From Blautia sp. (GTDB taxonomy: Bacteria > Bacillota > Clostridia > Lachnospirales > Lachnospiraceae), in assembly GCA_023663685.1 (NCBI GenBank), contig JAMPHB010000001.1, forward strand, positions 898,748 through 962,747: 64,000 bases of DNA. Reading direction: 5' to 3'. Position numbers and translations under genes: made by a program. Under the pieces are notes generated by a model. It saw only the letters and a list, made by a program, of their open reading frames with translations. It had not been told where the DNA came from and did no database searches. This document shows, one piece after another, positions 3,492 to 39,932 of the stretch; position 1 is the stretch's first letter, and each line of letters begins with the position of its first letter.

Positions 3492-3513
3492 GATTTTTCC
3501 TCCTTGAATTTCC

Positions 3514-4680: not shown

Positions 4681-4694
4681 AATCATTCCTCTTC

Positions 4695-12503: not shown

Positions 12504-12538
12504 AAAAAATCAGTGGCAATTTTGCCACTGATTTTTTT
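12504..12538. terminator. Bidirectional Rho-independent terminator
   Basis: A near-perfect hairpin (aaaaatcagtggca / tgccactgattttt) is flanked by an A-tract on the left and a T-tract on the right. It can stop transcripts from the plus-strand surface genes and from the minus-strand glycan island, whose last stop codon overlaps it. Confidence 0.93.
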
Positions 12539-14591
12539 ATAACAAATCCCGAATATCCGTCATACGGTTAAAAAACGGATCTTCCACCGTCAGCCCCAGA
12601 AACGCCTTATCCCGAATATGAAACCCATGAATCAGGCGGAGCAGAATCTCATCAATCCCCTTTTCCGGCGTTCGGATTTCTTCCGGGCAAAGCTCTATAT
12701 ATTCCTTAAAATAATCCACAATACCAGTCTGCACCTGCATGAAGCACGCGATGTCCTCCCCGCTGCGTGTTTCGTCTGCATAGCAGGGATTTCCTTCGCT
12801 GTCAAATTCCAGCACCGACGGCATGGGAGAAGTAAGGATTGTTTCCAGTATATAGTACTCTTCATAGATTGCGCTCTGATCCCGTTCACTCTCATCATAG
12901 AATGCCTGTATATCCAGTCCCTTGTCCTTCATAAACGACTTTTCCAACTGTAAAAAATACAGACCCTCCAAATGGTTTGGCACTAATCTGGAGCAATACA
13001 TCTGACTCGTCCCCTTTGCCACAAAATCAAAAAATCCAATAGCGCCCTCCCCCACAGCCAGCGATTCCACATACTTAAGGTTATTTTTTCGTTTCTCCTC
13101 CAGCTCCTCCAGAATGACCTCTGTATAATCCACCAAGGCCTTTCCCTGTGTCTCCCCGTCCGGCCGCGCAATTCCAAACCGCTCCTTTAGCTGCTGCCCC
13201 AGCGTGCCGCTGAATTTCATTCCCCCAATATAAGAAATATCCTCCCTGCTCTGTACACCTGCTCTGAGCGCCGCCATACGGGAGGTGAGAAAATACACCG
13301 ACCTATTCTCCGGCTGTAATATATCGTATAGTTTCTTTATCAGAAAGCCGTCCCGCGCACAGAACCAGATATTTTCAAGCTGCCGTTTCCCTGCCTCCTC
13401 TGCGAACCAGAGCACAAAGTCTGTGATCATTGGCGCCATAAATAAATATCCAATATCATATGCGCTGTCCACATGCAGCCTCTGCTCCTCATTCTCGCAC
13501 AAAAAGGGACTATTAAACACTTTACTCACAAGCATACCGAGCTTTAACCGTGAGGCGAGCGTATCCATAGAATCGCGAAAGCCCAGATATCCCACATTCT
13601 CCAGCAAATCCATGCCACTAGGGATAAGAAAGGCTGACAGTCCCTCCCTCTGCGCGCTTTCTATATCCGCAGAGCTGTCATCTCCCACATGCAGAAAAGT
13701 CCTTTCTCCTAAAAGACTTTTGAATTCCTTGAACAAATGCTGTCTCTTTCCGGTGTGGTACTCGCAGGAGACCAAAAGCCCGTCATAGTCACGGATTCCA
13801 CATATCCGAAGCATATGCGCAATCTGTTCCCGCCGGTAATACGAATCCGTAACAATATAGATTTGCTTCCCCTGCCTGTGAAGCTCCGATAAGAGCTCTG
13901 TCATCTCCCTTCTCGGCACGATCAGCTCACAGTCCAGCTCCCACTCCAGCCTGGCGAGCTCTTCCGCTGTGACAGAAACCGGAGATACCTGATCCAGTAC
14001 GGACTGATATATCACTTCTAAAAAAGGGGCATCCGCCTTCGAAAGCTCCTTTTCTGCGCTTATCCGCCTATCCACAAAATGATCAATACAGATTCCCTTT
14101 TCTCTTAATCGAAGCTCCAACAGCGCAATGACATCCGTGGGCAAAAGCACCTTGCGCATAATCAGTGTGTCAAACAAGTCAAAGCTGACCGCTTCCGCCT
14201 GCCTGGCGAGATGAAATAATTCTGACTTTTTCGGCCCGGCAATGCCGGCAAGATCATATGTCACCCGATTCTGCAGCAATAAATCTTTACCCCGCACATC
14301 CAGTAGTCGTATCTGATGCTCCTTACAAAATGCACCAATCTTTTTTGCAATCGCCCTGCATGAGCCCGGGCGCGCCACTACTATAATAAGCTGCACCCCG
14401 GCTTTCGCACAGTCCTGCAATGAAATAATGTTCTTCCCGTAAAGTGTTCCGTCCTCCCGAAAGCTGTCCAGCAGACCGATGACATTAAAGGAGCTAAGTT
14501 CGAAAAGCGCTGCCTCTGTCTCTGTTCCGAGCCCGTATAATGCAATCGGAATATTCTTATACTCTCCAAACAATTCTTCCAGTGACGCCAC
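12537..14591 (-). CDS. HAD-superfamily hydrolase of COG5610 type with N-terminal Rossmann-like module (684 aa)
   Basis: Residues about 15-110 form a GxG nucleotide-fold module (IALYGLGTETEAALFEL, then an Asp after the second strand). From about 135 a HAD domain begins with VSFDLFDTLIM (catalytic Asp pair). YIVTDSYYRREQ (motif II) and HVGDDSSADIESAQ (motif IV) follow. The long C-terminal part resembles the uncharacterised extension of large HAD proteins in surface-polysaccharide loci. It is the last gene of the island operon. A KdsC-type phosphatase is not seen elsewhere in the window, so it could dephosphorylate Kdo-8-phosphate, but the family is equally often a glycosyl/phosphoryl transferase accessory. 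The substrate is unknown. Confidence 0.75.
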   Translation of the reverse strand: MASLEELFGEYKNIPIALYGLGTETEAALFELSSFNVIGLLDSFREDGTLYGKNIISLQDCAKAGVQLIIVVARPGSCRAIAKKIGAFCKEHQIRLLDVRGKDLLLQNRVTYDLAGIAGPKKSELFHLARQAEAVSFDLFDTLIMRKVLLPTDVIALLELRLREKGICIDHFVDRRISAEKELSKADAPFLEVIYQSVLDQVSPVSVTAEELARLEWELDCELIVPRREMTELLSELHRQGKQIYIVTDSYYRREQIAHMLRICGIRDYDGLLVSCEYHTGKRQHLFKEFKSLLGERTFLHVGDDSSADIESAQREGLSAFLIPSGMDLLENVGYLGFRDSMDTLASRLKLGMLVSKVFNSPFLCENEEQRLHVDSAYDIGYLFMAPMITDFVLWFAEEAGKRQLENIWFCARDGFLIKKLYDILQPENRSVYFLTSRMAALRAGVQSREDISYIGGMKFSGTLGQQLKERFGIARPDGETQGKALVDYTEVILEELEEKRKNNLKYVESLAVGEGAIGFFDFVAKGTSQMYCSRLVPNHLEGLYFLQLEKSFMKDKGLDIQAFYDESERDQSAIYEEYYILETILTSPMPSVLEFDSEGNPCYADETRSGEDIACFMQVQTGIVDYFKEYIELCPEEIRTPEKGIDEILLRLIHGFHIRDKAFLGLTVEDPFFNRMTDIRDLL

Positions 14592-14602
14592 TTTGTCTCC
14601 TC

Positions 14603-15754
14603 CTACGTCCCGCCATACAAAAACTCATTAGAAAACCAGCGAATCTTTTCAGCCAAGAATCCCCGTTCCAGCAAATCTTTTTTGATATCCAAAGCGGTTT
14701 TTTCTGAAATATTCGCAATCAGCAAATATTCATATTCTGTATTCGTTTCATCAAACTCGTCCAAAGTTTCCACGGGCAGATCCTCGCTCCTATAATGACC
14801 CGCATTCCGGTCAAGCCATGCAGCGACCTCTATATCCTTCTCCCTGCAATAGGCATATAAGCTCTGACCGAGGCCGCCTGCCCCATAAATAACAATCCTG
14901 CTTCCCCGCTCTATCCCTCCATAGGGATAAAGCAAAACATTCTCACTGTCCCAATAGGTCATATCCCGCAATACAAGATATTTTCTATAGATATCTAAAT
15001 GCCGCAATAATTCTTTGGAATCCGAAAACTCCCGCTTTAAGTGTGCGATTAGGAAATCAATCTTTTCTATCTCATTTTTGTCTATTTGCTTTGTAATAGA
15101 ACCCATATGCTGCACATAATGATAACAGCATATATCTGTAAGCAAAACCCTCTCACTGTGACAGATATATGGATATACTACTGCTGCATCTTCTCCTACA
15201 CATATTCTGTTATCAAGTCTCTCCTGAATCATTTTCAGTTTTTCTGTCTTATACAGCTTAGTAACCCCATGCGGCTGTATTCCATACTCAAAAAATGTCC
15301 CGCTATAAAGCATACCCTCTATAATCTCTTTCACATTATAGATGCCGCACTTCATATTGTTCGTCACAACAGAAGAAGCTTCTCCAAAATCATAATATAA
15401 ATTTGCTGCCACCATATCCACATGAACGGCAAGCATGGCTTCCATCATTCGGGCAAAATAATCCGGCTCAACCCAGTCGTCCGCATCTACCCATAGGATG
15501 TATTCGCCCTCCGCAAACGCTGTGCCGGTTCTTCGCGCTTCCACTAATCCTGCATTTTTCTGATGATGTACATATATCTTTGCGTATTTCTGCGCATACT
15601 TGTCACAAATCCTGCCTGACGAATCCGTCGAACCGTCGTCAATCAAAATAATCTGTTTGTTTTCATATGTTTGTGCGACAATACTGTCCAGACACCTCTC
15701 AATATATTTTTCTACATTATATACCGGGACAACTACACTCAGCAAAGGCTCCAT
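14603..15754 (-). CDS. Family 2 glycosyltransferase fused to Rossmann-like module (383 aa)
   Basis: Residues 5-230 are a classic GT-A domain: LLSVVVPVYNVEKYIERCLD, IILIDDGSTDSSG near 35, and WVDADDWVEPDYF with the DxD site near 90. The C-terminal 100 residues carry a separate GxG fold, SRIVIYGAGGLGQSLYAY, ending with a WLDRN acidic turn. It transfers a sugar from a nucleotide donor onto a lipid, glycan or protein acceptor. The neighbours are Kdo genes and the COG5610 HAD gene (12 bases downstream). The C-terminal module matches those in six other island proteins. Confidence 0.88.
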   Translation of the reverse strand: MEPLLSVVVPVYNVEKYIERCLDSIVAQTYENKQIILIDDGSTDSSGRICDKYAQKYAKIYVHHQKNAGLVEARRTGTAFAEGEYILWVDADDWVEPDYFARMMEAMLAVHVDMVAANLYYDFGEASSVVTNNMKCGIYNVKEIIEGMLYSGTFFEYGIQPHGVTKLYKTEKLKMIQERLDNRICVGEDAAVVYPYICHSERVLLTDICCYHYVQHMGSITKQIDKNEIEKIDFLIAHLKREFSDSKELLRHLDIYRKYLVLRDMTYWDSENVLLYPYGGIERGSRIVIYGAGGLGQSLYAYCREKDIEVAAWLDRNAGHYRSEDLPVETLDEFDETNTEYEYLLIANISEKTALDIKKDLLERGFLAEKIRWFSNEFLYGGT

Positions 15755-15769
15755 CTGTCACATCTCCCT

Positions 15770-16729
15770 CTAAACAATCCCCGTGCCGATAATGGACTGC
15801 AGCCGAATCGTCCCCACGACGCGGCCATTCTCCACCACCGGCATACTTGCAATATTATTCGCTTTCATCTGATTGAGGGCATCCACCGCCAGACTCCCGC
15901 ACTCAATATATTTAGGCGCTCTGGTCATTACATCCTTTGCCGCCAGATGGTAGATATCAGCCCCCTTTTCCAGCTGCCTGCGCAAATCCCCGTCGGTGAT
16001 CACACCAAGAAGTCTTTGGTTGCTGTCTGTAATTGACACGATTCCCAAGCCTTTGCTGCTAAGCAGAATAATAATCCGGGGCAGCTCCATGTCCTCAGAG
16101 CCCACCGCATTGTCCTCGCCTGCCACCATCAGCTCGTCCACTGTGATTGTAATCTTTTTCCCCAATGCCCCGGCAGGATGATATCTCCCGAAATCAATAT
16201 CACAAAAACCGTTCCGCTCGCTCACAGCCACCGCTAAAGCGTCTCCATAGCACAGTGCCTGCGTCGTGCTGGAGGTTGGCGCCAGCCCCAGAATACATGC
16301 CTCGCCGTAATCCGGCAGCAGCTGTACAATATCCGCATATTTTGTCATCGCAGAGCCCTCTTTTCCAGTAATGGCGACAACGACCGCGCCTGACAATCGA
16401 ATCGCCGGCAGGATACGGTTGATCTCATCGCTCTCCCCACTGTGGCTGATGGCAATCACGATATCCTCCCGGCCTACCATTCCCAAATCTCCGTGCAGAG
16501 CCTCCGCCGGATGCAGGAAGAAGGAGGAAGCGCCCAGGCTGGCAAAGGTCGCGGCAATTTTTCGCGCAATATGCCCCGATTTGCCCATTCCAGTAACAAT
16601 CACTTTTCCCTTACATCCAACTATCAGGTCAACAATTTGTGAGAACACCCCGCCAAGACAGTCCCTCGTCGCCTTCAGCGCCTCGATTTCCTTGTCAAAT
16701 ACATCCTTTCCCCTTGAGACAGCATCCAT
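15770..16729 (-). CDS. kdsD: Arabinose-5-phosphate isomerase (319 aa)
   Basis: Interconverts ribulose-5-P and arabinose-5-P, the first step toward Kdo. The SIS domain occupies about residues 30-175, with VIVTGMGKSGHIARKIAATF, FLHPAEALHGDLGMV and SHSGES substrate-loop signatures. Two CBS domains follow (about 205-319). This SIS-CBS-CBS layout and length are those of KdsD/KpsF/GutQ. It starts five bases after kdsA stops. Finding it beside kdsA and a CMP-sugar synthetase supports a Kdo or Kdo-like role rather than gut-type sugar catabolism. Confidence 0.92.
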   Translation of the reverse strand: MDAVSRGKDVFDKEIEALKATRDCLGGVFSQIVDLIVGCKGKVIVTGMGKSGHIARKIAATFASLGASSFFLHPAEALHGDLGMVGREDIVIAISHSGESDEINRILPAIRLSGAVVVAITGKEGSAMTKYADIVQLLPDYGEACILGLAPTSSTTQALCYGDALAVAVSERNGFCDIDFGRYHPAGALGKKITITVDELMVAGEDNAVGSEDMELPRIIILLSSKGLGIVSITDSNQRLLGVITDGDLRRQLEKGADIYHLAAKDVMTRAPKYIECGSLAVDALNQMKANNIASMPVVENGRVVGTIRLQSIIGTGIV

Positions 16730-16734
16730 CGTCT

Positions 16735-17529
16735 CTATACCTCCGTCTCCTGCACCGCGGCATAAACTCTCAAAAGCTTCTTTAACAGTCCTTCTGCCTC
16801 TTCCAGGCGCACCATATTGGGACCGTCAGACAGCGCCTGCTCCGGCTCCGGATGCACCTCCATAAATAAAGCATCCGCTCCCGCCGCAATTCCCGCCTTT
16901 GCCAGCGGCTCCACATAACAGCGGTTCCCTCCGCTGACCGTTCCGTTCCCTCCGGGCTTTTGCACACTGTGGGTCGCATCCATGACTACCGGATACCCCA
17001 GCTTTTTCATTTCAACAATTCCGGTCATATCCACGACAAGCGTATTGTAGCCAAAGCTGGTTCCCCGCTCGCACAGCAGAATGCGGCGGCTTCCGCTCTC
17101 CTCGATTTTCCTGACCACATTTTTCATATCCCACGGTGCTAAAAACTGCGCTTTCTTTACATTGATAAGACATTCTGTCTTTGCCGCTGCCACCAGCAAA
17201 TCGGTCTGTCTGCACAAAAATGCCGGAATCTGAATCATATCCGCCACCTGCGCGGCCTCTTTCGCCTGCCATGGCTCGTGTATATCCGTTGCTATTTTCA
17301 GACCGTAAGTATCTTTCACCTTTTGCAGCAGCGCAAGCCCCTTTTCGATTCCCGGCCCCCGGTAGGAAGACAGGCTTGTTCTGTTTGCCTTGTCAAAGGA
17401 TGCCTTAAAATAGTAATCAATATCCAGTCTTTCTGCAATTTCTTTCATCTCCCGCGCAACCCACATCAGATTTTCTTCGGACTCTATCACGCAGGGGCCC
17501 GCAATCAGCGTAAATTTTTCTAAGCTCAT
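16735..17529 (-). CDS. kdsA: 3-deoxy-8-phosphooctulonate (Kdo-8-P) synthase (264 aa)
   Basis: Condenses phosphoenolpyruvate with arabinose-5-phosphate. Diagnostic blocks are [58 protein letters not shown] and [12 protein letters not shown], followed by [13 protein letters not shown]. These separate KdsA from DAHP synthase. The Cys in AGPC, instead of the Asn of the E. coli enzyme, indicates the metal-dependent class. ATG 17529 has a GGAG five bases before it; a GTG at 17535 overlapping the previous stop is the alternative. Kdo synthesis is characteristic of Gram-negatives, so it is notable in a genome that otherwise looks monoderm. Confidence 0.95.
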
Positions 17530-17531
17530 GC

Positions 17532-18167
17532 TCACTCCACCATCCTTACCGCCATATCATAATCCTGCTGCTCGTCAATATCCACCGCTTCCATACCGCT
17601 TACCTCCTGAATATAGGGGCGAAAACCAATCCTGCGGCGATGCTCTGTAAATATTTCCTTTTGAAACATGTAAAAGCCACTTGTCTCCACCCAGACGGGC
17701 TCCATATCCTGCGTTCTCGGAACATCATTCAGATTATAATTGACAGGCTCGTTTTTGTACCATGCAAAGGTCTGGATACGCTCCGCGGAAAAGGCGGAAT
17801 CATTTTCGCCCTGCAATACATGCTCCAGCGCGTTTGCAATCGAGGAGGCCTGCAAAAAGGGAGAGGTCGTGTGGGCAAGAATATATATCTGCGCATCAAC
17901 CTCCCGGATAAAGCTCTCATATATTTCAAAGCCCTTTACGAGATCGCCGTCTAAGCTTTCGCTCCGTCTCAGAAACCTTGCCCCGTCGGGAAGATATTTG
18001 CAGACTGCCGGATCGCTACAATATACATACACCTCATCAATCCGCTCTACCTGCAGCAAGGAATTCACAATATGCCAGCAGAGCGGATGTCCCGCTATCG
18101 GCAGAATATTTTTGTGCGGCAATCTCTGGGAATCCAGCTTAATCGGTACAAAAGCAACTACCTTCAT
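17532..18167 (-). CDS. CMP-sugar (acylneuraminate/Kdo type) cytidylyltransferase (211 aa)
   Basis: Activates an acidic ulosonic sugar with CTP. The N-terminus [20 protein letters not shown] is the NeuA/PseF/KdsB nucleotide loop, with the catalytic SQRLPHKN variant. Further motifs are VYCSDPAV near residue 45 and HTTSPFLQ near 95, the usual substrate-binding segment. Length is short, as in single-domain NeuA-like enzymes. It overlaps or abuts kdsA and overlaps the upstream transferase by ATGA (18164-18167). With KdsD and KdsA, its likely product is CMP-Kdo or a Kdo derivative; the motif style is closer to NeuA than to classical KdsB. Confidence 0.85.
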
Positions 18168-19771
18168 ACTCGTTCCTCCTCGAAAAAATTATATGTGACG
18201 GGCAGACCGTACCGCATGACCCTCCTGGAGAGATCGTCCCAGAGGCAGGTCTTCATCAGCTGTGCTAAATGCATATCAAAGGCCGCATTCTGCTCCTTCG
18301 TCATTCCCTTCTGCACGGCTTCCTGCAAGGCCGTTTCTATCTCAGAGCTGTCGCTGACTTCGTAGGCGCAATTCTTTCCCTGAATCGCACTTCTCCCCAC
18401 CGGAACTACCGGCTTTCCATACATCAGCGCCTTATATTCCACCGCCGACGCCATACAGACAGTCACATCTGACATTTGAATGAGGCTGTCCACATCACGG
18501 TCCAGAACCAGAATGATCCCGGAGCCAATATCTGCAATATCCGGCAGATTTCCCTTATTATAATGCGGATGCGGCTTAAAAATCAAATTCCAGTCATTTC
18601 TGCGGCATATGTCGTACAGAAATGCCAGCATTTCCTTCGAGGACTGAAAGCAATGGCTCACATACTGATACCAGTAATCTGACTCAGGATTCATGCCCAT
18701 CCCCTCATCGTCCATCCCCGCAACAAATACCGTTTTCCTGTCAGTATCCAGCTTCGCCAGATGTTCATCATCTGTCATCGTTTTATGAAAGATTCCCGTA
18801 TCCCTCTGTGAATCTATAATATAGGATTTTACAGCTCCTGCCCTGTCAAGCTCTTCCTTTTCCACCTTGATATCCAGCAGCTTCTGCGGATTCACCGCAT
18901 ACTCTCCCTGCCCCTGAATCCCTTTTCTGTCAATCTGGTATGTGCCGGGTATCCAGCCAAACTCCATAAAACCAATAGGAATCTGATGCTTCTCTGCCAG
19001 CCTGCCAAGCACATATCCCTGAAAATTCCATGCCGCCCATACGATAATTCTTTTTGCCTCTAAAATCATCAGCAACTGCTCATAGTATTCATACATAAGC
19101 GCAAGACATCTGCCCGTACAATCAACATCCTCTACATGCTTTCTGTGCATGATCTCTAAAATGTTTTTGGTCTTTCCACTTTCTCCTGAATCCTCCGCCT
19201 TTAGTGCCTCCTTGTACTCCTTTGCTTCATACCAGTTGCTCAATAAGGGCAAAGCAATTACGTCCCAGCCATATTTTTCGATTACTCCAGACGTATCCAT
19301 TCCTTCGCAGTCCGTCAGAATGATGCACTGCTCATTTTTATGCGCTTCCTGATAAGCGGCAAGAAAATTGAGCATAGTCCCATTTTGGCGCATGGTAAAA
19401 ACCGGGATAAACAGCAATGTGGTGTTTTTGTAATTCTTTACGGCTGCAAATTCCCTGCACTGTTCTATGCTTTCACGATATGTAATCTTTCTATTATCAC
19501 AGAGCATATCATAGGTAATGAAATCTGTTCCCTGCCTTAATCCCTTTGCTTTCAGATCATTTACAATCTCCGCGTGAAATTTACACATAATGATTACAAA
19601 CAATCCCTGCCAGTCCTCTATGGCTTCGGGAGATAAGACCTTTTTTCCATAAAACTCCTCTCCATAATAATTGGAGTCAATAAAAAAAGACGGTTCTATT
19701 TTTGCATTATTCTCTAAATACGCCCTGCAGAGAGTACCCACTCCCCAAAATACTGTGGTTTTTTCCTTCAT
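18164..19771 (-). CDS. Capsule KpsC/KpsS-like glycosyltransferase with N-terminal Rossmann-like module (535 aa)
   Basis: Residues about 5-90 carry the island's GxG-type module (TTVFWGVGTLCRAYL, PSFFIDSNYYG). The remainder looks like a GT-B enzyme of the capsule-synthesis type. It has NWNLIFKPHPHYNKG near 395, then LIQMSDVTVCMASAVEYKAL and GKPVVPVGRSA near 450. Known relatives with this layout include the bacterial beta-Kdo transferases KpsC/KpsS. It is ATGA-coupled to the CMP-sugar synthetase, strengthening the idea that it transfers a Kdo-like residue. The acceptor and exact family are not decided by sequence reading. Confidence 0.65.
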   Translation of the reverse strand: MKEKTTVFWGVGTLCRAYLENNAKIEPSFFIDSNYYGEEFYGKKVLSPEAIEDWQGLFVIIMCKFHAEIVNDLKAKGLRQGTDFITYDMLCDNRKITYRESIEQCREFAAVKNYKNTTLLFIPVFTMRQNGTMLNFLAAYQEAHKNEQCIILTDCEGMDTSGVIEKYGWDVIALPLLSNWYEAKEYKEALKAEDSGESGKTKNILEIMHRKHVEDVDCTGRCLALMYEYYEQLLMILEAKRIIVWAAWNFQGYVLGRLAEKHQIPIGFMEFGWIPGTYQIDRKGIQGQGEYAVNPQKLLDIKVEKEELDRAGAVKSYIIDSQRDTGIFHKTMTDDEHLAKLDTDRKTVFVAGMDDEGMGMNPESDYWYQYVSHCFQSSKEMLAFLYDICRRNDWNLIFKPHPHYNKGNLPDIADIGSGIILVLDRDVDSLIQMSDVTVCMASAVEYKALMYGKPVVPVGRSAIQGKNCAYEVSDSSEIETALQEAVQKGMTKEQNAAFDMHLAQLMKTCLWDDLSRRVMRYGLPVTYNFFEEERV

Positions 19772-20940
19772 TTATAATTACGCTCCCTCTGCTTTGCCGC
19801 AGGAACTACATAATCTTTGCTATTACTCCCATGACATCTTCTGCACATACTTAAATACCCCTTTTCAGAATATCCCATATTAAATTCCAGCAAGAGCTTT
19901 CTTCCCAAATCGCCCTCCGGAAGCGAAGTCAAATCCAAAAAATCCTCTTCTCCTATATGATACCCCAGATTATCCGACACTGTCCGGGCCATAACGCAGA
20001 AATAGAGTCTTCCATTTCTGGTTTCTCTGCAGGGAGTAGCACAAAGGTCAAATTTTCGGATAATTTCTTTTTCATCCCCCTCGTCTACATAATTTGCAAA
20101 CCCATAATCCCACCATTCTTCATCTTCTTTTCCCATGTTATATGAAACTCCGGCCTTCGCCAGCAGCTTTTCTAATTTTTCATACTGATCATGTAAGGCT
20201 GGAATCGACCTTGTATAATTCGAAATCCTAACCAGAACCCCATACTTCCGGCAACTGTCTAATAACTCCTTCCCGGGAAGAATTGTTCCATTTGTCGTAA
20301 TACTGAATGTCCCAATCTTATCCCTGTACTTGTCTCCTATATATCGAACCGCATATTCCAAATCTGCATATAATAACGGTTCTCCCCCAATCAATACGAA
20401 CTCATGGATATAGTCCACTTTAGAAAAGAATATGTCTGCGGAATTGTAAACATCCTCCAGGCGCATATCCTCCGTATTCCGATCCACCGCATAACACGCA
20501 TGTGCACAGTCCGCGCACTTTAAGGTACACCGTTCGGTCACGCATATTTGTGCAAGATTCATAAACAGAAGATTCTTTTTATAAAACATATACAAAGGAA
20601 AAATCCTATTCAAAAACCCCTCAGAATAGTAATAGGTACAGTTATCCTGTTTTAACTGCCTGCTAATTTCCTGTTCATGGGCAGAATTCGCCGCAATAAT
20701 TATCGTCTCCTCCTTTGCATTCTCTAAATACCACTCGTAAGAATGCACAATCTCCCCGCAAAAACCGCTTATCTGCTTTTCCCTGCTATTATCTATAAAT
20801 CCTGCAAACATATCAAATTTGGATAATGTCACATATAATCCACGGCCAATATCCCCAGCGCCAAAGATATAAAAAGAGCGGTTATCCAAATTCGGAATCT
20901 TTAGCTTGTCCAACTCTGATCCCTTGTGAGTCCATTTCAT
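19768..20940 (-). CDS. Radical SAM protein with N-terminal Rossmann-like module (390 aa)
   Basis: Residues about 20-110 form a GxG module (FYIFGAGDIGRGLYV, FAGFIDNSREK). The radical SAM core follows, with the [4Fe-4S] cysteines in CTLKCADCAHAC near residue 140 and the FVLIGGEPLLY GGEP motif near 187. The C-terminus has extra cysteines (CATPCRE; CRRCHG), consistent with a SPASM/twitch-like auxiliary cluster. It overlaps the downstream transferase by 4 bases. The reaction is unknown; in a glycan locus it could epimerise, deoxygenate or methylate a sugar, or modify a peptide acceptor. Confidence 0.8.
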   Translation of the reverse strand: MKWTHKGSELDKLKIPNLDNRSFYIFGAGDIGRGLYVTLSKFDMFAGFIDNSREKQISGFCGEIVHSYEWYLENAKEETIIIAANSAHEQEISRQLKQDNCTYYYSEGFLNRIFPLYMFYKKNLLFMNLAQICVTERCTLKCADCAHACYAVDRNTEDMRLEDVYNSADIFFSKVDYIHEFVLIGGEPLLYADLEYAVRYIGDKYRDKIGTFSITTNGTILPGKELLDSCRKYGVLVRISNYTRSIPALHDQYEKLEKLLAKAGVSYNMGKEDEEWWDYGFANYVDEGDEKEIIRKFDLCATPCRETRNGRLYFCVMARTVSDNLGYHIGEEDFLDLTSLPEGDLGRKLLLEFNMGYSEKGYLSMCRRCHGSNSKDYVVPAAKQRERNYK

Positions 20941-21036
20941 AATAATACTTCCCCTTCATTTATGATTTCCTTTACCTGTGTGCGTCTCACAAATAGACTT
21001 TCGTGTTATAAAATTAGGCTTTCCCGGCTTCATCCA

Positions 21037-22764: not shown

Positions 22765-22819
22765 ATCGTATCTTCACCCTTCTATATCCCATGCTCTAAA
22801 ATGATAGCTCCCGCTTTTC

Positions 22820-24455: not shown

Positions 24456-24484
24456 GTGAACTTCCTCCATTTCATAATTTCCAC

Positions 24485-25495: not shown

Positions 25496-25504
25496 ATCCT
25501 GCCT

Positions 25505-26620: not shown

Positions 26621-26635
26621 CTCTTAGACCTCTTT

Positions 26636-28968: not shown

Positions 28969-28978
28969 AACTCATTCC

Positions 28979-30262: not shown

Positions 30263-30265
30263 CCC

Positions 30266-31195
30266 TTATACTCCGCTCTGAAGATCTTTCAAAATCACCT
30301 TTGCCACATTCTCCGAATCTAATCCGTAAAGCGCATTGAGATATTCCCTGCTTCCGGTCACCGGGGCAAAGGTTCTCGGAAAACCGAATTTGTGCAGCCG
30401 GATTTCCCGCATATCTTTCTCAGAAAGCACTTCCTCTACCGCACTTCCCAAACCGCCTCTTATGCTGTGCTCCTCCAGCGTATAGATGCAGGAATATTTC
30501 CCCTGCAATTGTTCAATAAATTCCACATCCATGGGTTCAATGGACGGTACACTGTATACCGCGCAGGCAGCTCCCTGCTCCTCCAGCAAATCCGCTGTGC
30601 GCAGCGCATCCTTTACCATAGTTCCCGTAGAAAGCAGTATTGTATCTTTTCCCTCCCGCATAGGAATCACCTTCCCAATCTCAAAGGAAACCGGACTCTG
30701 GTGTATGACCGGATCCGCGCTCCTTCCAATCCGGATATATGCGGGACGGTTTGCTTCGTAAACAGCATACATGACTGCACGCATTTCCACCGGATCTGCC
30801 GGGCAAAACACCATCATATTCGGCAATTCACGCATCAACGCGATGTCAAAGTATCCATGATGGGTAGGGCCTGCTGTTCCATAGGCATGTCCTCCCCCAA
30901 CGCCCACCAGTACCACCGGATTCTCCTGATAGCACACGTCCAGCTCGATCTGCTCCCATGCGCGATAGACCATAAAGCTGACCACATTATAAATAAACGG
31001 CTTCATGCCCATTGCCGCCAGCCCCGCTCCAAAGCTGACAAAGTTCTGCTCTGCAATCCCCACATTGATGAACCGCTCCGGGAATTCTTTTTCGTATTGT
31101 TCAAAGACAGAAAATCCCGTGTCTCCAATCACGCACATGACCTTGTCATCCTTCCGGGATAATTCAGTTAATGTATTGATAAAGGTTGTCCTCAT
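30266..31195 (-). CDS. Transketolase-like subunit, C-terminal half (309 aa)
   Basis: Pyrimidine and C-terminal domains of a split transketolase. RFINVGIAEQNFVSFGAGLAAM contains the ThDP-activating Glu near residue 47. GGGHAYGTAGPTHHGYFDIALM follows near 105, with AYIRIGRS near 150. It overlaps the N-terminal subunit gene by four bases. Together the pair transfers a two-carbon ketol unit. In a sugar-nucleotide cluster it may supply or consume pentose phosphates, or put a two-carbon branch on a sugar. Confidence 0.9.
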   Translation of the reverse strand: MRTTFINTLTELSRKDDKVMCVIGDTGFSVFEQYEKEFPERFINVGIAEQNFVSFGAGLAAMGMKPFIYNVVSFMVYRAWEQIELDVCYQENPVVLVGVGGGHAYGTAGPTHHGYFDIALMRELPNMMVFCPADPVEMRAVMYAVYEANRPAYIRIGRSADPVIHQSPVSFEIGKVIPMREGKDTILLSTGTMVKDALRTADLLEEQGAACAVYSVPSIEPMDVEFIEQLQGKYSCIYTLEEHSIRGGLGSAVEEVLSEKDMREIRLHKFGFPRTFAPVTGSREYLNALYGLDSENVAKVILKDLQSGV

Positions 31196-32076
31196 TCGGC
31201 ATTCAACTCCTCTAATAATATTGCAAGCTGTTCATCATTCGGCGACTTAAAATGCCATTCCAGACGGTTCTCCATGAACGAAGCTCCCTTGCCCTTGACA
31301 GTATTTGCCACAACTACTGTCGGGGCAGCTCCATTCCTCCCATGCCCGGTCTGCAGCGCCCGGTAAATCTGAGCGTAATCATGCCCGTCAATCTCGATGA
31401 CCTGGCAGCCAAAGCTCCGAAATTTTGCAGCCATGTCTCCCATATCACAGACCTCCACGTCGCTGCCATAAGACTGCAGGCGATTCCGGTCAATGATGTA
31501 AGTCAGATTGCCGAGCCGGAGCTTCGCTGCAAGCATTGCCGCTTCCCAGACGCTCCCCTCGTTGCACTCCCCATCGCCCATCAGGACATACACATTTCCT
31601 TCCAGCCCCTGCACACGTTTCGCATATGCCATTCCAAGCCCGACATTCGCGCCATGCCCCAAAGAACCGGCGGACATTTCCACCCCGCGCACGCCGTTCG
31701 TAGCGTATTTGCGCGTATGTCCGGCATAGCATTCCCCGTTTGCTATATGCTTTTGTATATCCTCTATCGGAATGATTCCCGCATGTGCCAGCACAGTATA
31801 GAAGCTCGCGGCAATATGTCCTTTACTTAAAATAAAAATGTCCCTGCCCGGATCCTCCATATTATCCGGATCATACCGGAGCACAGAGGTGTACAAAACC
31901 GCCATTATATCAATCGCAGAATATCCTCCTCCAATGTGGGAATCGTTTGTCCGGTTCAAAACCTTCGCCACATCGATTCGCACCTCTTTTGCAAATTTTT
32001 GTGCTCTCTTTACATTAAAGCCTTCCACTATACGCTCCTTATCCATTGAATTTACTGATTTGCCATATCTAATCAA
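31192..32076 (-). CDS. Transketolase-like subunit, N-terminal half (294 aa)
   Basis: ThDP-binding half. SHIGGGYSAIDIMAVLY lies near residue 45, ILSKGHIAASFYTVLA near 80, and the ThDP motif GDGECNEGSVWEAAMLA, ending in IIDRNRLQS, near 170. The start is uncertain: TTG 32076 overlaps the reductase gene, and ATG 32046 (284 aa) is an alternative without a strong ribosome site. Such split transketolases pair with the C-terminal half encoded immediately downstream. Confidence 0.88.
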   Translation of the reverse strand: MIRYGKSVNSMDKERIVEGFNVKRAQKFAKEVRIDVAKVLNRTNDSHIGGGYSAIDIMAVLYTSVLRYDPDNMEDPGRDIFILSKGHIAASFYTVLAHAGIIPIEDIQKHIANGECYAGHTRKYATNGVRGVEMSAGSLGHGANVGLGMAYAKRVQGLEGNVYVLMGDGECNEGSVWEAAMLAAKLRLGNLTYIIDRNRLQSYGSDVEVCDMGDMAAKFRSFGCQVIEIDGHDYAQIYRALQTGHGRNGAAPTVVVANTVKGKGASFMENRLEWHFKSPNDEQLAILLEELNAE

Positions 32077-33037
32077 CTTTATTAATTTCCTCTATTGCCC
32101 CTCTCTCCAACTCGTAATCCGAATGCTCTACTATATCCTTTAGTTGTCCTAAATGAGAACAGCTGACGAGCGCAATGCCTTCAAGCGGATTTGATGTAAT
32201 ATATGCATTCACAAACGCTGTGGGGGATACCTTATGTTCTTTGCAAAAACAATCTATATACTGTAGTTTTTTCATATTTGCCTGCGTAACAATCCTTTTT
32301 TTTAAAAAAGAATCCACATGATCAATTCCTTCCGCAATTGCTTTTTGAAAAAAACCTTTGCACTGTGAGCTATAAGCCATTGCAAGCAGCCCCTCTTTTT
32401 TCAGGTAAAAATATGTTTCGTCATCCATATGCGTTGTCGTCTCGTCATCCCACATAGCATCTGTGTATTCAGCCAGCGACCACCAGGTCTGCACAACTGT
32501 AAGTTTTTTCAAATGATTCCTCTCAGCATACCGATTAGCCGCTTTAATTCGTTCAATTCTCCAGTTTGCCACTCCAATCTGGGCAATTTTCCCTCTCTCC
32601 GCCAACATCTGCATCGTTTCAACAATCTCTTCCACTGGCCTGTCCGGCTCGTCCCGGTGTAACAAATAGACATTCAGATAATCCGTCCGGAGTGCCTCTA
32701 AACTCTGTAATAATTCTAATAAAAGTGTATCTGAAGATAAGTCTGCCCAAAACCTCTTTCCATCGTTCTTTACTCCACCTTTGGTGACAAGCCATATCTG
32801 ATCGCGTACCTTTGCCCGCTCCATCCATTCACCAATACACGCTTCACTTTTTCCCCTTCCATTTTCTACCCACTCATAATAATTTCTGGCAGTGTCCAGA
32901 ACAGTTCCGCCCTTCTTCACAAAATAGTCCAGCATTTCAAACGACTCCGCCTTTTCTATACGAGTGCCAAACCGGGCGACACCTAAACCGATTTTGGAAA
33001 TCGGACATGCTTCTCCACTACATTTTATATATTTCAT
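32069..33037 (-). CDS. Aldo-keto reductase (322 aa)
   Basis: NAD(P)H-dependent reductase. The catalytic tetrad is visible as LDTARNYYEW (Asp, Tyr), LVTKGGVK (Lys) and VYLLHRDEPD (His). ATG 33037 (MKYIKC) is preferred over an upstream frame because AAGAAAGG precedes it. The gene starts just after the FkbM stop. It could reduce a keto group on a branched or deoxy CDP-sugar, or make a polyol. Confidence 0.82.
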   Translation of the reverse strand: MKYIKCSGEACPISKIGLGVARFGTRIEKAESFEMLDYFVKKGGTVLDTARNYYEWVENGRGKSEACIGEWMERAKVRDQIWLVTKGGVKNDGKRFWADLSSDTLLLELLQSLEALRTDYLNVYLLHRDEPDRPVEEIVETMQMLAERGKIAQIGVANWRIERIKAANRYAERNHLKKLTVVQTWWSLAEYTDAMWDDETTTHMDDETYFYLKKEGLLAMAYSSQCKGFFQKAIAEGIDHVDSFLKKRIVTQANMKKLQYIDCFCKEHKVSPTAFVNAYITSNPLEGIALVSCSHLGQLKDIVEHSDYELERGAIEEINKVD

Positions 33038-33038
33038 A

Positions 33039-34097
33039 CTACATTTGCCTTTCTTTTGGTACACTATAAAATACAGATTCGTTAATGTTCATATAGCTGC
33101 GAATATAAAATCTATTTTGTGGAAAATGATCAATAAAATAGAGCGGAATCTCCCATAAATCGGTCAGCCTATGATAAATTGCTATTGCGGTCAAAGGATT
33201 CTTCTCCAGATTCCTCCTCCCTCCCTGCATAAGCCTGCCCTCATAACCTTCTACATCAATCTTAATAAAAGTTGGTATAACCCCCGCCCTTTTTATGACA
33301 TTATCCAGTGTATCTGCTAAAATGGCTTTCCCTTCCGTTTCAGATTCAACAATCACAGCATTCATTCCCAGATAATCTCGAAGATAAAGAGTTCCCGCTT
33401 GATCGGCAAGCGCCAATGAAACCACCTCTACTCTTTCATCTTTCATATACTCCTCTTTCAACCCTGCATATTTTTCTGCCGGGTCAATCGCAATATATTT
33501 ACAAAACTGATTTTTATTATTTTCTAATAAAAACGGAAAAATATTACCGCCTGCAGAACCGCAATCTACAAAAATCTCCTGCAAATTCTTCTTATATATA
33601 TCATAAGCAAAATATTGCTTTTCATATGGCAAAACGGGAATTTCTATATTTTTTTCATTTGACAAATAAGCAAAGATTCCAGCATATACTTTTTTTGATA
33701 ATTCATCCCCCAGCTTGTTATACACTCTTGCAATTTCATTTTTATGGTTCAGTAAACAACTCTGTTCGCATCCAAAAATAAGATTTCTTGTATTTGTCAT
33801 TTTTTTTGACTGTATATAGTCAATAATATGCCAGATTTCCAAAAAGCCAAAATCTTTGAGGAAAACCTTTATACTGTCATAAAGCGCTCCCTTCTGCAAT
33901 ATACCTACAATGACAGGAATATGTCTCTCCTTCTCCTGCGCCGGTCTTGGTGCAACAATAGAAATAGCGTTAAAAGTCTTTCCTATCTTGCTCTCAGATT
34001 TGTCCATGAAATATAAGACATTTATTTGATTATCCTGTAATATTTCAGAGAGAAGCAATCCTCCATAACCGGCACCGTATATAATTACATTCTCCAT
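33039..34097 (-). CDS. FkbM-family methyltransferase with N-terminal Rossmann-like module (352 aa)
   Basis: Residues 1-70 are the GxG module (NVIIYGAGYGGLLLSEIL, VLYFMDKSESKIG). The FkbM core begins with IFVDCGSAGGNIFPFLL near residue 175. AIDPAEKYAGL and FIKIDVEGYEGRLMQGG follow. ATG 34097 has GAGG nine bases upstream. Architecture equals the protein at 26636-27829, but the two are diverged, so they probably methylate different positions or sugars. The DNA is very AT-rich. Confidence 0.83.
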   Translation of the reverse strand: MENVIIYGAGYGGLLLSEILQDNQINVLYFMDKSESKIGKTFNAISIVAPRPAQEKERHIPVIVGILQKGALYDSIKVFLKDFGFLEIWHIIDYIQSKKMTNTRNLIFGCEQSCLLNHKNEIARVYNKLGDELSKKVYAGIFAYLSNEKNIEIPVLPYEKQYFAYDIYKKNLQEIFVDCGSAGGNIFPFLLENNKNQFCKYIAIDPAEKYAGLKEEYMKDERVEVVSLALADQAGTLYLRDYLGMNAVIVESETEGKAILADTLDNVIKRAGVIPTFIKIDVEGYEGRLMQGGRRNLEKNPLTAIAIYHRLTDLWEIPLYFIDHFPQNRFYIRSYMNINESVFYSVPKERQM

Positions 34098-34142
34098 CTT
34101 CAACATCCTCTTAAAGCGGCTGATTTATTTCCTCCGAACAAC

Positions 34143-35195
34143 TTATAAAAGAGATACAAAATAATCATCTATATATGCGCGACAGATTTCCTTCGCCGTC
34201 TGCCCTTCTGCATAGCGCTGTTCAAATTCTGCTGTCATTCGTATCGTTTCAGCAAAACAGTAACGCGGCTTCCAGCCAAGAATCTCCTGCGCCCTGCCGC
34301 TGTCCAGCTTTAAAATGTTTGTCTCTTTCACCGTATTATTCCCCGAAACCTGATATCGTCCCTCCGGGAAAATTTCACAGAGCATATCCGCCACCTCCTG
34401 CACAGCCACAAATCCGTCTGCGTCGGGGCCAAAGTTAAAGGCAGGCATTTCCCCTCCCTCGAGCTTCCCATCGTAAAGGCACTTTACATAAAGCATATAG
34501 CCATATAGGACGTCCAATACATTCTGCCATGGACGGATGGCATAGGGATTGCGGATCTGTGCTGTCTCTCCCCGCAGAAAAGAGTCAATCAGACTCGGAA
34601 AAAGTCTTGTGCGGTTAAAATCTCCGCCCCCGATTACATTACTCGCTCTCGCCGTACCGATTTTCACATTACTATCTCTAAAGAAACTGTTCCAGTAGCA
34701 TTCACTGATTAACTCCTGAACAGCCTTGCTGGCAGAATAGGGATCCTGCGCGCCAAAGCTGCAGCTCTCGGTATAGGGCACGTTTGTCTCCCTATTCCTA
34801 TAACATTTATCGCTGGTTACAACCAAAACGGCACGCACGCCTTCCGTCTCGCGCACCGCCTCCAGCAGATTCACGACTCCCATTCCATTTGTCTCAAAAA
34901 TGTAATGTGTCAGCTCCTGCCCCTGATTTACGGTAGAGTGGGAGGCCAGGTGAATGACAATTTCCGGTCTGCATTGTTTAACAGCCTCTGCGATTGCAGA
35001 ACGCTCCCGTATGTCTCCCCAGAAGCTCTCGACCGGCGTTTCTGCACTTCTCCAAAACTCTGTCCCGCTGTCCGGCAATGCAAATCCATAAAGCCTTGCC
35101 CCGCAATAGGAGAGCATCTGACACAGCCATGTCCCCTTAAAACCGGTATGGCCGGTAATCAATATCCGCTTCCCCTGAAAAAAAGATTTCATCAT
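34143..35195 (-). CDS. rfbG: CDP-glucose 4,6-dehydratase (350 aa)
   Basis: Short-chain extended dehydrogenase making CDP-4-keto-6-deoxy-D-glucose. NAD loop ILITGHTGFKGTWLCQML, VTSDKCYRNRE with the dehydratase Asp-Lys, and YSASK near residue 155 are diagnostic. ATG 35195 overlaps the rfbF stop (ATGA) and follows GGAGGG, so a longer frame is rejected. It is the committed step for CDP-linked deoxysugars. Downstream island enzymes (aminotransferase, ThDP enzyme, aldo-keto reductase) could use its keto product. Confidence 0.92.
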   Translation of the reverse strand: MMKSFFQGKRILITGHTGFKGTWLCQMLSYCGARLYGFALPDSGTEFWRSAETPVESFWGDIRERSAIAEAVKQCRPEIVIHLASHSTVNQGQELTHYIFETNGMGVVNLLEAVRETEGVRAVLVVTSDKCYRNRETNVPYTESCSFGAQDPYSASKAVQELISECYWNSFFRDSNVKIGTARASNVIGGGDFNRTRLFPSLIDSFLRGETAQIRNPYAIRPWQNVLDVLYGYMLYVKCLYDGKLEGGEMPAFNFGPDADGFVAVQEVADMLCEIFPEGRYQVSGNNTVKETNILKLDSGRAQEILGWKPRYCFAETIRMTAEFEQRYAEGQTAKEICRAYIDDYFVSLL

Positions 35196-35977
35196 TCCCA
35201 CACCCTCCATGGTGGGTTTGGCTGCTGCCACATATGCTCCAAAAGATTTTTATCCCGCAAGGTGTCCATCGGCTGCCAAAAACCACGATGCTGGTATGCG
35301 GTCAGCTGTCCGTCCGCCGCCAGAGAATGCATCGGTGCATATTCGAAAATAGTCTCATCTTTTGGCTCTATATAATCAAATACCTTGTAATCCAATACAA
35401 AAAAGCCTCCGCTGATCCAGTTTCCGTCCTCCTTCGGCTTTTCTTCAAAACATAGCACTCTCTTGCTTTTGTCATCAATATCCATCACTCCGAAACGTCC
35501 TCCGGGCTGTACCGCCGTGACTGTTGCAACCGTGCCATGCGCATAATGGTAATCCACCAGCTTCTGAATATTCACATCTGAAACGCCGTCCCCATAAGTC
35601 ATAAGGAAGGTCTCTCCCTCAGGAATATACTTTTGAATACGCCGGATTCGCCCTCCCGTCATGGATGCATCTCCGGTATCTACCAGCGTCACCCGCCATG
35701 GCTCCGCTACATTATTATGGATCTGCATAGCATTACCATTGCGAAAATCAAAGGTCACATCTGAGGAATGCATATAGTAATTTGCAAAATATTCTTTGAT
35801 TACCTGCCCTTTATACCCACAGCATATAATGAAATCCTGGTATCCATAATAAGAATACTGCTTCATAATATGCCAGAGAATCGGCCTGCCGCCTATCTCC
35901 ACCATGGGTTTCGGGCGAATCTGCGATTCTTCACTGATTCGTGTCCCAAGGCCTCCCGCCAATATCACGACTTTCAT
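35192..35977 (-). CDS. rfbF: Glucose-1-phosphate cytidylyltransferase (261 aa)
   Basis: Makes CDP-glucose. ILAGGLGTRISEESQIRPKP is the nucleotide loop. EIGGRPILWHIMKQYSYYG and IICCGYKGQVIKEYFANYY are strongly characteristic of RfbF/DdhA and separate it from dTDP or UTP enzymes. The gene is translationally coupled to the dehydratase gene. A radical SAM gene ends only three bases before its start. Confidence 0.95.
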   Translation of the reverse strand: MKVVILAGGLGTRISEESQIRPKPMVEIGGRPILWHIMKQYSYYGYQDFIICCGYKGQVIKEYFANYYMHSSDVTFDFRNGNAMQIHNNVAEPWRVTLVDTGDASMTGGRIRRIQKYIPEGETFLMTYGDGVSDVNIQKLVDYHYAHGTVATVTAVQPGGRFGVMDIDDKSKRVLCFEEKPKEDGNWISGGFFVLDYKVFDYIEPKDETIFEYAPMHSLAADGQLTAYQHRGFWQPMDTLRDKNLLEHMWQQPNPPWRVWE

Positions 35978-35980
35978 AAC

Positions 35981-37090: not shown

Positions 37091-37102
37091 TTGCTCTCCT
37101 CA

Positions 37103-38128: not shown

Positions 38129-38136
38129 TTATGCTC

Positions 38137-38556
38137 CTACATATCCATAACAATGTCTTCCAGCGAAATCATAGGTATTTGATTTCCAAGATCATCCAAA
38201 TTCCTTTTTATTTCATCAAACGCATTCGTAACTGCTATAATAATTAAATCAATATTGTCCCTCGTTGACAATTCAGATGGCTTTATAATTTCAATTTCAT
38301 TCGCTCCATAATGCGTCACCATGCTGTATTTATCAATAAAACAGTCAACTTTTACCGGACTATTCTGAAGTTCGCGGTAGAGAATCACTCCCAGTTCTGC
38401 CACGCCATAAATTGCTACATTTTTAATTCCCTGCTTTTGCAGCACATCCACAACATTTCGACCCTGAATATCACAAAGCATCCACTTGTATAGTATATCA
38501 TATTTGCGCTTATACTTACAGTATTGTATATAAAAATTACTATCTCTTTTTCTCAT
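38137..38556 (-). CDS. Stand-alone Rossmann-like module protein (139 aa)
   Basis: After a basic N-terminal helix the protein is little more than the island's GxG module: VAIYGVAELGVILYREL, VDCFIDKYSM, then EIEIIKPSEL and DLIIIAVTNAFDEI. It is the only freestanding copy. ATG 38556 overlaps the upstream stop (ATGA). The fold resembles PglD N-terminal or the C-terminal domain of sugar C-methyltransferases, both of which bind nucleotide sugars. No catalytic domain is present, so it may bind a sugar nucleotide or partner proteins. Confidence 0.6.
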   Translation of the reverse strand: MRKRDSNFYIQYCKYKRKYDILYKWMLCDIQGRNVVDVLQKQGIKNVAIYGVAELGVILYRELQNSPVKVDCFIDKYSMVTHYGANEIEIIKPSELSTRDNIDLIIIAVTNAFDEIKRNLDDLGNQIPMISLEDIVMDM

Positions 38557-39932
38557 ATGCCACTCCAATCGTGCAAGGCATCCACACATTGAATCATCAC
38601 GGGCTTACCCACCGCCTCAAACAGCTGTACCACCGAGCTTCCATCACCATAATACGCATCGCTTAATGCAATCGCCCTATCCAAATCTGTGCTATCATCA
38701 TAGATTCCCCATGCTTCTGCCTGATAGACCGTCTCTATTTTTCTATATCGCTCCCACAAATAAGGCCGCATGGACTGTATGCTATTATGCATAAGAGGGT
38801 GAGGTCGCCACAAGAACACCGCATCACTCCATTCTTCTCTCATATAACGAAAGGTATCCTCCAGCTTATCCAGCCACTTCTCCCCGCCGTTCAACATCGC
38901 CGTAATACTGGTATTGTAAAAAATCACCTTTTTCCGGCTTCCATCCGGTCTTTGCAGCAGCGCAAGCCACTCCTCCGGCACATCCAGCTTCTCTTTCTGT
39001 GTACTTAATACTTTATCAACCTTAGGTGAGCCCAGACCCAAAATCCGCTTTTCCTGATAGCTGCGATCTAAATGCTTTCCGGTAAGTCCGAGACTTTTTG
39101 CAAACTTTAAATACTCATTGACATAAATCTGCTTCATGGCTTCTGACTGAACAATAACTGTATCTGCATATATCAGTCCCTTAGTCTGCACAAAATGGCT
39201 CATTTTGTCTACTACCGCCTGATCCTTCGGATTCACCTCTGGCAGTATAAAATAAGGAATATACACAAGCGAATCCGTATACAGCCTAAGTCTTTCCGAA
39301 TAGTAATCCGGATGCACGCTTGTTACAGTATTATACTCATCATAGGGATTGTGGAAAAAAATCATATCCGGCTGCCTGTCCTCTATAGAGTATGCCTGCC
39401 AGTCCGTAATCGAAACAGAGGCAGGGTACAACTCCCCCTCATAATGCATTGCGCTGAAACGTCCGTCTCTGTCTTTGTCAAAATATGGAATAGGTATTAC
39501 AAAAGCCTCGCAGCTCTCGTCCTCGTCAACGGCTTTCCACACACTCTCCAGACTGTCCCACATGGATGCCTTGTATGGTAAAAATATAACTTCCTTTTTA
39601 TCTGGAATCTCCCTTTTTAGTTCCTCCCGAACTATCTCCAGCTGCCCGGCAAGTACCTGATAAGCGGCATCCGTCTCCCCTGCCGCTGACACCAGTTCTC
39701 CCAGCCTATACACCAGCTCGCAATACTTCTCCAGTTCCGATACAACGCTTGTCCCCATCCCCCGAAGGATCTCAATGCGTGTCCCCAGAGCAACTGCCAG
39801 ATTCTGACAGTCTGCCAAAAGCACAATTACCTCTTTCGTTCTCCCCTCACTCAATAATGTCTCAATTTTTGTGGTTCCTTCCGCCAATAACTCCACGCTG
39901 TGAAGTAAACGATTCCTATTTCTTCTACTCAT
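38553..39932 (-). CDS. CDP-glycerol glycerophosphotransferase-like glycosyltransferase (459 aa)
   Basis: A helical N-terminal region is followed by a GT-B type fold. FLPYKASMWDSLESVW lies near residue 133 and the PDMIFFHNPYDEY segment near 195. VIFYNTSITAML near 325, FLWRPHPLMHNSI near 365 and ALSDAYYGDGSSVVQLFEA near 415 are like the CDP-glycerol:poly(glycerophosphate) transferase family (RPHP and D..S loops). It is the first glycan gene of the island operon after a small nucleotidyltransferase gene. It could use a CDP-polyol such as the CDP-pentitol predicted upstream of flagellin 1. Confidence 0.65.
   Translation of the reverse strand: MSRRNRNRLLHSVELLAEGTTKIETLLSEGRTKEVIVLLADCQNLAVALGTRIEILRGMGTSVVSELEKYCELVYRLGELVSAAGETDAAYQVLAGQLEIVREELKREIPDKKEVIFLPYKASMWDSLESVWKAVDEDESCEAFVIPIPYFDKDRDGRFSAMHYEGELYPASVSITDWQAYSIEDRQPDMIFFHNPYDEYNTVTSVHPDYYSERLRLYTDSLVYIPYFILPEVNPKDQAVVDKMSHFVQTKGLIYADTVIVQSEAMKQIYVNEYLKFAKSLGLTGKHLDRSYQEKRILGLGSPKVDKVLSTQKEKLDVPEEWLALLQRPDGSRKKVIFYNTSITAMLNGGEKWLDKLEDTFRYMREEWSDAVFLWRPHPLMHNSIQSMRPYLWERYRKIETVYQAEAWGIYDDSTDLDRAIALSDAYYGDGSSVVQLFEAVGKPVMIQCVDALHDWSGI

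Follow-up and report, generated by a model that had tools for sequence, protein, structure and literature searches.

A Rossmann-type accessory domain recurs on glycan enzymes of flagellin-linked gene islands in Blautia sp. and its relatives

The window analysed here is a stretch of 64,000 nucleotides from Blautia sp. (assembly GCA_023663685.1, contig JAMPHB010000001.1, positions 898,748 to 962,747), which contains a run of 24 minus-strand genes (the island, 12537-39932) with a flagellin gene on each side. Seven island proteins share a small Rossmann-type module. In this window and in related genomes the module is a promiscuous accessory domain with dozens of partner groups, stand-alone copies and double copies, and it is concentrated on transferase and tailoring enzymes and seldom found on nucleotide-sugar-making enzymes. 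Sequence comparison indicates that the modules descend together with their enzymes. The islands encode no predicted multi-membrane proteins, and genomes rich in modules are associated with flagellin.

The block had been pointed out in these seven proteins by a model which saw only the letters of the window (the sequence-only reading), and this observation was confirmed, since all seven could be aligned with an invariant glycine and aspartate. On the minus strand, the module was located by profile searches at the C-terminus of a GT2 glycosyltransferase (14627-14926, gene 14603-15754), at the N-terminus of a KpsC/S-like protein (19511-19771, gene 18164-19771), at the N-terminus of a radical SAM protein (20590-20898, gene 19768-20940), near the N-terminus of a first FkbM methyltransferase (27410-27742, gene 26636-27859), whose catalytic part matches PDB 2py6 at 4e-24, at the N-terminus of a second FkbM methyltransferase (33804-34106, gene 33039-34106), and in a stand-alone protein with an N-terminal extension of about 45 residues (38155-38451, gene 38137-38589). 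The weakest of the seven, found by profile search and comparison, is at the N-terminus of a HAD protein with a part like phosphoribosyl pyrophosphate (PRPP) transferases (14274-14576, gene 12537-14591). The block measured about 85-105 residues instead of the 80 or so first given, and the supposed seven unrelated catalytic domains are in fact five catalytic families on six enzymes, as FkbM occurs twice, with the stand-alone protein as the seventh carrier. The GxGxxG motif is intact in four of the seven and broken in the HAD, KpsC-like and stand-alone proteins; the aromatic residue with its following glycine and the aspartate are present in all. The GT2 C-terminal and HAD N-terminal modules sit back to back over the gene border (14274-14926).

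Leave-one-out hidden Markov models (HMMs), run against the 24 island proteins, strongly recovered the second FkbM protein (1e-12), the first FkbM protein (8e-12), the stand-alone protein (2.5e-10), GT2 (1e-9) and the radical SAM protein (1.3e-6), and weakly the KpsC-like protein (0.0076). The HAD protein (0.032) did not rise above background, ranking under two unrelated proteins, the FAD protein at 28979 (0.006) and the AMP ligase (0.026). Another profile was built from relatives and held no window or HAD sequences, the relatives having been recruited via a profile seeded by the seven. It matched all seven module proteins (the KpsC/S-like one at E 7.8e-19) and left the island's remaining 17 proteins unmatched (E<=10, default filters). 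Six window modules scored 55.8-73.0 bits with it, while the best controls scored 44.3 (Rex, n=10), 47.0 (CoA_binding_3, n=30) and 34.4 bits (PglD_N, n=18), and one of four Methyltransf_14 controls reached 62.9 bits. Chance likeness of Rossmann loops was also considered, and was rejected for six modules on the leave-one-out models, the relatives' profile and the control scores. In the own genome (2.3 Mb, 82% complete) the seven-sequence profile returned the seven, by construction, and one Rex-like protein (C26, E 0.0065, Rex-like by size and alignment).

The proposal that all seven belong to one family held firmly for six modules and less surely for HAD. The HAD module scored 28.4 bits with the relatives' profile, inside the control range, and with an iterated profile, which gave Rex proteins 36-43 bits, three of ten Rex exceeded its 39.8. 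Neither this control-range score nor the window-only test carries its placement, which is based on profile comparison: the HAD blocks matched the module set at E 4e-12, whereas outside families gave no better than 5e-5, and a HAD-block profile ranked the modules top at 32.1 bits, with controls at 18.0 or below. By this comparison the HAD block belongs to the same superfamily, with the module family as its nearest branch. An N-terminal module match was found in 70 of 82 HAD homologues; three of the matched homologues are long fusions with the first match in the glycosyltransferase (GT) part, and one of these three has none before the HAD part. Long fusions with a HAD part were seen at loci L067, L094 and L097, the first two of which keep the module ahead of that part.

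Pfam cut-offs were reached by none of the seven window modules and were just passed by three of 30 relatives' representatives, with three different models. With hhalign, the module set (without window and HAD sequences) matched the HAD blocks at 97.6%, the stand-alone modules at 99.1%, PglD_N at 97.4% (E 1.2e-11), Rex at 97.0%, and CoA_binding_3 and Methyltransf_14 (four sequences) both at 96.8%. The likeness with PglD and with the C-terminus of sugar C-methyltransferases that the sequence-only reading had named was therefore borne out, with Rex and CoA_binding_3 equally near, and the module is, by sequence, a branch of the known superfamily with these four families. After 5 of 578 aligned modules were removed as duplicates, an aromatic residue was found before the first glycine in 545 of 573 and the aspartate in 515. 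The aromatic residue occurred in 0 of 28 CoA_binding_3, 0 of 9 Rex, 3 of 16 PglD_N and 3 of 3 Methyltransf_14 controls, and so sets the modules apart from CoA_binding_3, Rex and mostly PglD_N, and not from Methyltransf_14. The concern that only generic Rossmann residues are kept applied to the glycine and aspartate, which are superfamily-generic; the aromatic residue alone goes beyond them.

These families differ from the module in the proteins that carry them. CoA_binding_3 (PF13727), of WbaP-type phosphoglycosyl transferases and PglF-like dehydratases, is likewise Rossmann-type and accessory to glycan enzymes, and the best PDB sequence match of the module was 3nkl (4e-11 with A5), which we take to be a CoA_binding_3-type domain. 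However, it rides on membrane enzymes or dehydratases and lacks the aromatic residue typical of the module, which is mostly on soluble transferases and tailoring enzymes. None of the seven window modules matched PF13727 at E<=1, and the own-genome matches are located elsewhere (C22, C11:187303). PglD_N (PF17836), of the PglD/NeuD/VioB sugar acetyltransferases, is also alike through VioB (7txp, 1e-4), and one relative's module (L036:3426-4979) is above its Pfam cut-off; in the window GT2 alone matched it (16.9 against a cut-off of 23.4 bits), with none above the cut-off in the own genome. Its hexapeptide acyltransferase partner stands beside none of the seven modules, and Hexapep was found in 3 of 105 sampled relatives' module proteins, which may be PglD-type. 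Methyltransf_14 (PF08484), a domain bound to one methyltransferase type, has the aromatic-glycine pair and the aspartate in common with the module (three usable control sequences); in the window it matched the first FkbM protein (22.4 against a cut-off of 23.5 bits) and GT2 (12.6), and none of the other five. The NAD(H)-binding domain of Rex is alike by PDB match (2vt2, 1e-7), but unlike the module it has the full GxGxxG and no aromatic residue. The partner of this domain in Rex is a DNA-binding domain; the window modules gave just weak local Rex matches far under the cut-offs, and their partners differ. No description of the module was found in the literature, where the search covered open-access text and one may exist elsewhere.

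A match at E<=0.01 was found in 47 of 60 genomes, the own genome included, with 1 (often Rex-like) to 29 matches each, clustered in islands. In 299 genomes of the phylum, 90 had a match at E<=1e-4 and 16 had at least three, some through Rex. Matches of 210-240 residues were called Rex by our own naming, without a family scan; loci fetched as Rex were omitted from the module counts, and the genome counts still hold about one Rex per genome. In the fetched loci, which were selected for HAD or for many modules, 563 of 4783 open reading frames carry the module at domain E<1e-3, a threshold that may admit PglD_N or CoA_binding_3 proteins (L033, for one, is of PF13727 type). Some genomes occur in two copies (e.g. 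G032 and G094), and duplicate proteins were removed by comparison of their last 60-80 residues. The catalytic remainders formed 76 BLAST clusters, 37 of them single, with GT2 and HAD chained together via fusions. Pfam families on 30 representatives included GT4, WbsX, GT61, GT92, GT-D, DUF4422, WcbI, Glyphos_transf, cytidylyltransferase, LicD, pyruvyl transferase, several methyltransferases, MptE-like, TIM barrel, GDSL, a Gly_transf_sug/UDP-glucose dehydrogenase fusion, radical SAM and HAD. Two modules were present in 13 of 560 proteins, and relatives too have stand-alone modules that are extended at the N-terminus. In 91 loci, counted from the first module gene to the last, the module is on 509 of 702 genes encoding 150 residues or more. 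When the genes at both ends, by which each island is delimited, are left out, the figure is 332 of 525.

The partners were compared in two samples drawn at random from the same islands, one of 105 proteins with the module and one of 105 without it. The module sample was topped by GT2, GT4, FkbM, Gly_transf_sug, WcbI and radical SAM (GT2 22 vs 7, GT4 8 vs 4, FkbM 8 vs at most 3), and the module-less sample by nucleoside diphosphate sugar epimerases (Epimerase 20, p 8e-6; Epimerase_2 9; Polysacc_synt_2 9), each of which is outside the 25 families listed for the module sample and thus at most 1 there. Among homologues of window proteins, the module was found in 75 of 90 for GT2, 23 of 25 for FkbM and 12 of 13 for radical SAM, and in none of 35 for the KdsD, KdsA, KdsB, thiamine pyrophosphate (TPP) enzyme, AMP ligase, DegT, SDR and nucleotidyltransferase genes.

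The islands are linked to flagellin in several ways. In the window, one flagellin gene adjoins the island (40391-41818, minus strand; G000:C11:940149-940559) and a second lies on its other side (2034-3533, minus strand; G000:C11:901822-902232). Among 196 genomes of the order, 44 are module-rich (at least three matches), and flagellin was found in 43 of these and in 93 of the 152 others (Fisher p 4e-7, uncorrected for kinship and with the own genome counted). In all six module-rich genomes of these sets that are assembled in three contigs or fewer (G035, G115, G165, G196, G214 and G240) a flagellin gene is about 5-16 kb from a module, among the matches listed. All 43 genomes reached via 44 of the 79 HAD loci have flagellin, and of 60 flagellin places checked, which are some of those matched, 11 share a contig with a HAD locus, about 11-50 kb from the HAD gene. 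At locus L064, from a metagenome-assembled genome labelled Muribaculaceae, a HAD protein 90% identical to that of the window and a flagellin gene lie in one stretch; this genome looks mislabelled or mixed. Four or more membrane helices were predicted by crude hydropathy in none of the 702 island genes (nor in the 24 of the window), compared with 35 of 573 genes in the flanks. This suggests that the islands themselves lack genes for a flippase, a polymerase or a transporter channel. In Aeromonas, flagellin is reported to be glycosylated in the cytosol, ahead of its binding by the chaperone and its export (PMC4065374).

We tentatively favour, as a reading that is quite possible though short of probable, one Rossmann-type accessory domain on soluble glycan enzymes that binds a nucleotide and/or pairs, and whose carriers extend a flagellin glycan in the cytosol. 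The module would have become joined long ago, in events specific to each family, to many unrelated soluble enzymes that work on a growing surface glycan, where it may be a non-catalytic regulatory or docking domain. By analogy with its relatives, it may bind a common nucleotide, with the ribose held by the conserved aspartate and the phosphate by the [YFW]GxG loop, and/or pair with other modules as the related WbaP domain does; stand-alone copies could serve enzymes without a module of their own. This role is favoured because the PF13727 domain of WbaP, the closest domain for which data came to our attention, dimerises, makes most of the dimer contact and is stabilised by uridine mono-, di- and triphosphate (UMP, UDP and UTP), and UMP inhibits the enzyme (PMC10942596). 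For the C. difficile FliC glycan, assembly by a glycosyltransferase, a cytidine diphosphate (CDP)-dependent phosphotransferase and a methylation step has been proposed (PMC10714395). Other accessory parts of flagellin-glycosylating enzymes are known. Tetratricopeptide repeat (TPR) modules are helical. As TPR acceptor modules they are accessory parts of Maf and other flagellin-glycosylating enzymes (PMC13317340); they sit on the enzyme that meets flagellin, whereas the Rossmann-type module is on many island enzymes.

Several results weigh against this reading. The intact GxGxxG was found in only 236 of 573 modules and the loop varies by enzyme family, so one shared ligand is not assured; FkbM and radical SAM enzymes release no nucleotide, yet carry the module. 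Modules of different enzymes in one island do not resemble each other in an island-specific way (identity 0.1941 against 0.1948 +- 0.0012 in permutations; highest column z 2.5). In the window the module is on just 7 of 24 island genes, and GT4 carries it at either end (8 N-terminal, 4 C-terminal). Homologues of the Glyphos_transf-like protein at 38553 lack it (0 of 11), and transferases were also found in the module-less sample (GT2 7, LicD 5, Stealth 5, GT4 4, pyruvyl transferase 3); because LicD, Stealth and pyruvyl transferase are among them, the split between transferase and precursor enzymes is a tendency. Carriers of nucleotide-sugar type also exist, namely the UDP-glucose dehydrogenase fusion (L042:200-2644) and 5 of 14 cytidylyltransferase-like proteins. 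One module-rich genome has no flagellin, and a flagellar gene lies within the fetched 10 kb in only 9 of 79 HAD loci.

The strongest rival, which we consider rather unlikely, is that each module is the substrate-binding half of the enzyme it is joined to and completes that active site, and is hence enzyme-specific with no shared tag. In sugar C-methyltransferases the C-terminal domain is thought to complete the active site, and D-mycarose 3-C-methyltransferase (4rv9) matched the module at E 0.009. When the nearest neighbour of a module was sought outside its own locus, the two shared a partner cluster in 69.5% of cases against 24.4% in shuffles, and both position and loop motif are family-typical (GT2 C-terminal 73/75, FkbM N-terminal 23/23, WbsX C-terminal 13/13). 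The aromatic-glycine pair common to Methyltransf_14 (three sequences) and the one high-scoring control of that family point the same way, as does Methyltransf_14 being, by profile comparison, the nearest of the outside families to the stand-alone modules. These stand-alone copies have no catalytic domain to complete, however, and 15 of 90 GT2 homologues do without a detected module (some may be missed). The same domain moreover occurs on glycosyltransferases with several different folds, on radical SAM enzymes and on enzymes of phosphatase type.

The assembly line proposed by the sequence-only reading, in which the modules of an island all bind a single carrier, nucleotide sugar or scaffold particular to that island, appears distinctly unlikely. 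The number of matches per genome (up to 29, Rex included) and the large share of island genes with a module would fit it, and so would the stand-alone copies that adjoin module-less enzymes: in the window the stand-alone gene is flanked by two module-less transferase-like genes, and in a test conceived after the window had been seen, the downstream neighbour had a module for 10 of 24 stand-alone against 288 of 398 other module genes (p 0.0024, post hoc) and the upstream neighbour for 5 of 13 against 244 of 359 (p 0.035, post hoc). On the other side, the nearest neighbour of a module was in the same locus in just 1.1% of cases, and an island-specific carrier or scaffold is unsupported because same-island modules lack extra likeness. 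A tag for CDP- or cytidine monophosphate (CMP)-sugar donors found no support either, because nucleotide-sugar-making enzymes seldom carry the module and users of S-adenosylmethionine, radical SAM and probably PRPP do. HAD12537 resembles the Bcs3-type CrpP-CriT layout, with a HAD phosphatase followed by a PRPP-transferase-like domain, and its profile positions 131-545 match Bcs3 379-837 at 1e-29, which covers CrpP and the first half of CriT; the domain limits, and the drawing of ribose from PRPP by Bcs3, are those given in PMC10299916. By this resemblance a module carrier may use no nucleotide sugar. The earlier interpretation was thus supported in part: one family, many carriers per island and stand-alone copies stood, and the donor-sugar tag and the island-specific carrier did not, with a ligand common to all modules, or a conserved way of pairing, being possible. 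A passive, ligand-free Rossmann remnant retained for folding or solubility is very unlikely, because, although the loop glycines are gone in many families and most conserved residues are superfamily-generic, the aspartate that closes strand 2 and the aromatic-glycine pair are widely kept and, to our knowledge, are not needed for the fold.

The neighbouring genes give some indication of the glycan. Beside flagellin, 3634-6118 holds alcohol dehydrogenase, IspD/ribitol-phosphate cytidylyltransferase-like (below NCBIfam cut-offs) and ribulose-phosphate 3-epimerase genes, perhaps for CDP-ribitol supply; by sequence, these genes, taken together with HAD12537 (Bcs3-like) and the protein at 38553 (Glyphos_transf-like), hint at a ribitol-phosphate/ribofuranose flagellin glycan. 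Within the island, 15770-19771 encodes a KpsF-family isomerase and a Kdo-8-phosphate synthase, both above NCBIfam cut-offs, a CMP-sugar synthetase-like protein (best PseF, below cut-off) and the KpsC/S-like protein (Capsule_synth above cut-off). In 21037-35977 there are a glucose-1-phosphate cytidylyltransferase and a CDP-glucose 4,6-dehydratase above cut-off, an acetolactate-synthase-like TPP enzyme and, by eye, a split transketolase, a set which, by analogy, may make a branched CDP-sugar. Two island proteins (27826-28968 and 24485-25495) have no Pfam match at E<=0.01. A GT2-type protein of 645 residues adjoining flagellin (3-1937), its first part weakly SunS-like and far under cut-off, may place the first sugar on flagellin.

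The module is mostly missed by Pfam, yet it is on most genes of many glycan islands in common gut bacteria. A wider form of the favoured reading, which we regard as unlikely, is that in flagellated Lachnospirales docking by one Rossmann module, in cis or through stand-alone adaptors, gathers enzymes of dozens of families on a flagellin-borne glycan, perhaps gated by a nucleotide, and that new chemistries join by gaining the module. Should the module prove to be a docking or nucleotide-sensing domain, it would explain how soluble, unrelated enzymes cooperate on one acceptor, it would serve as a signature for such islands, and it would make flagellin-glycan assembly in Gram-positive bacteria directly testable.

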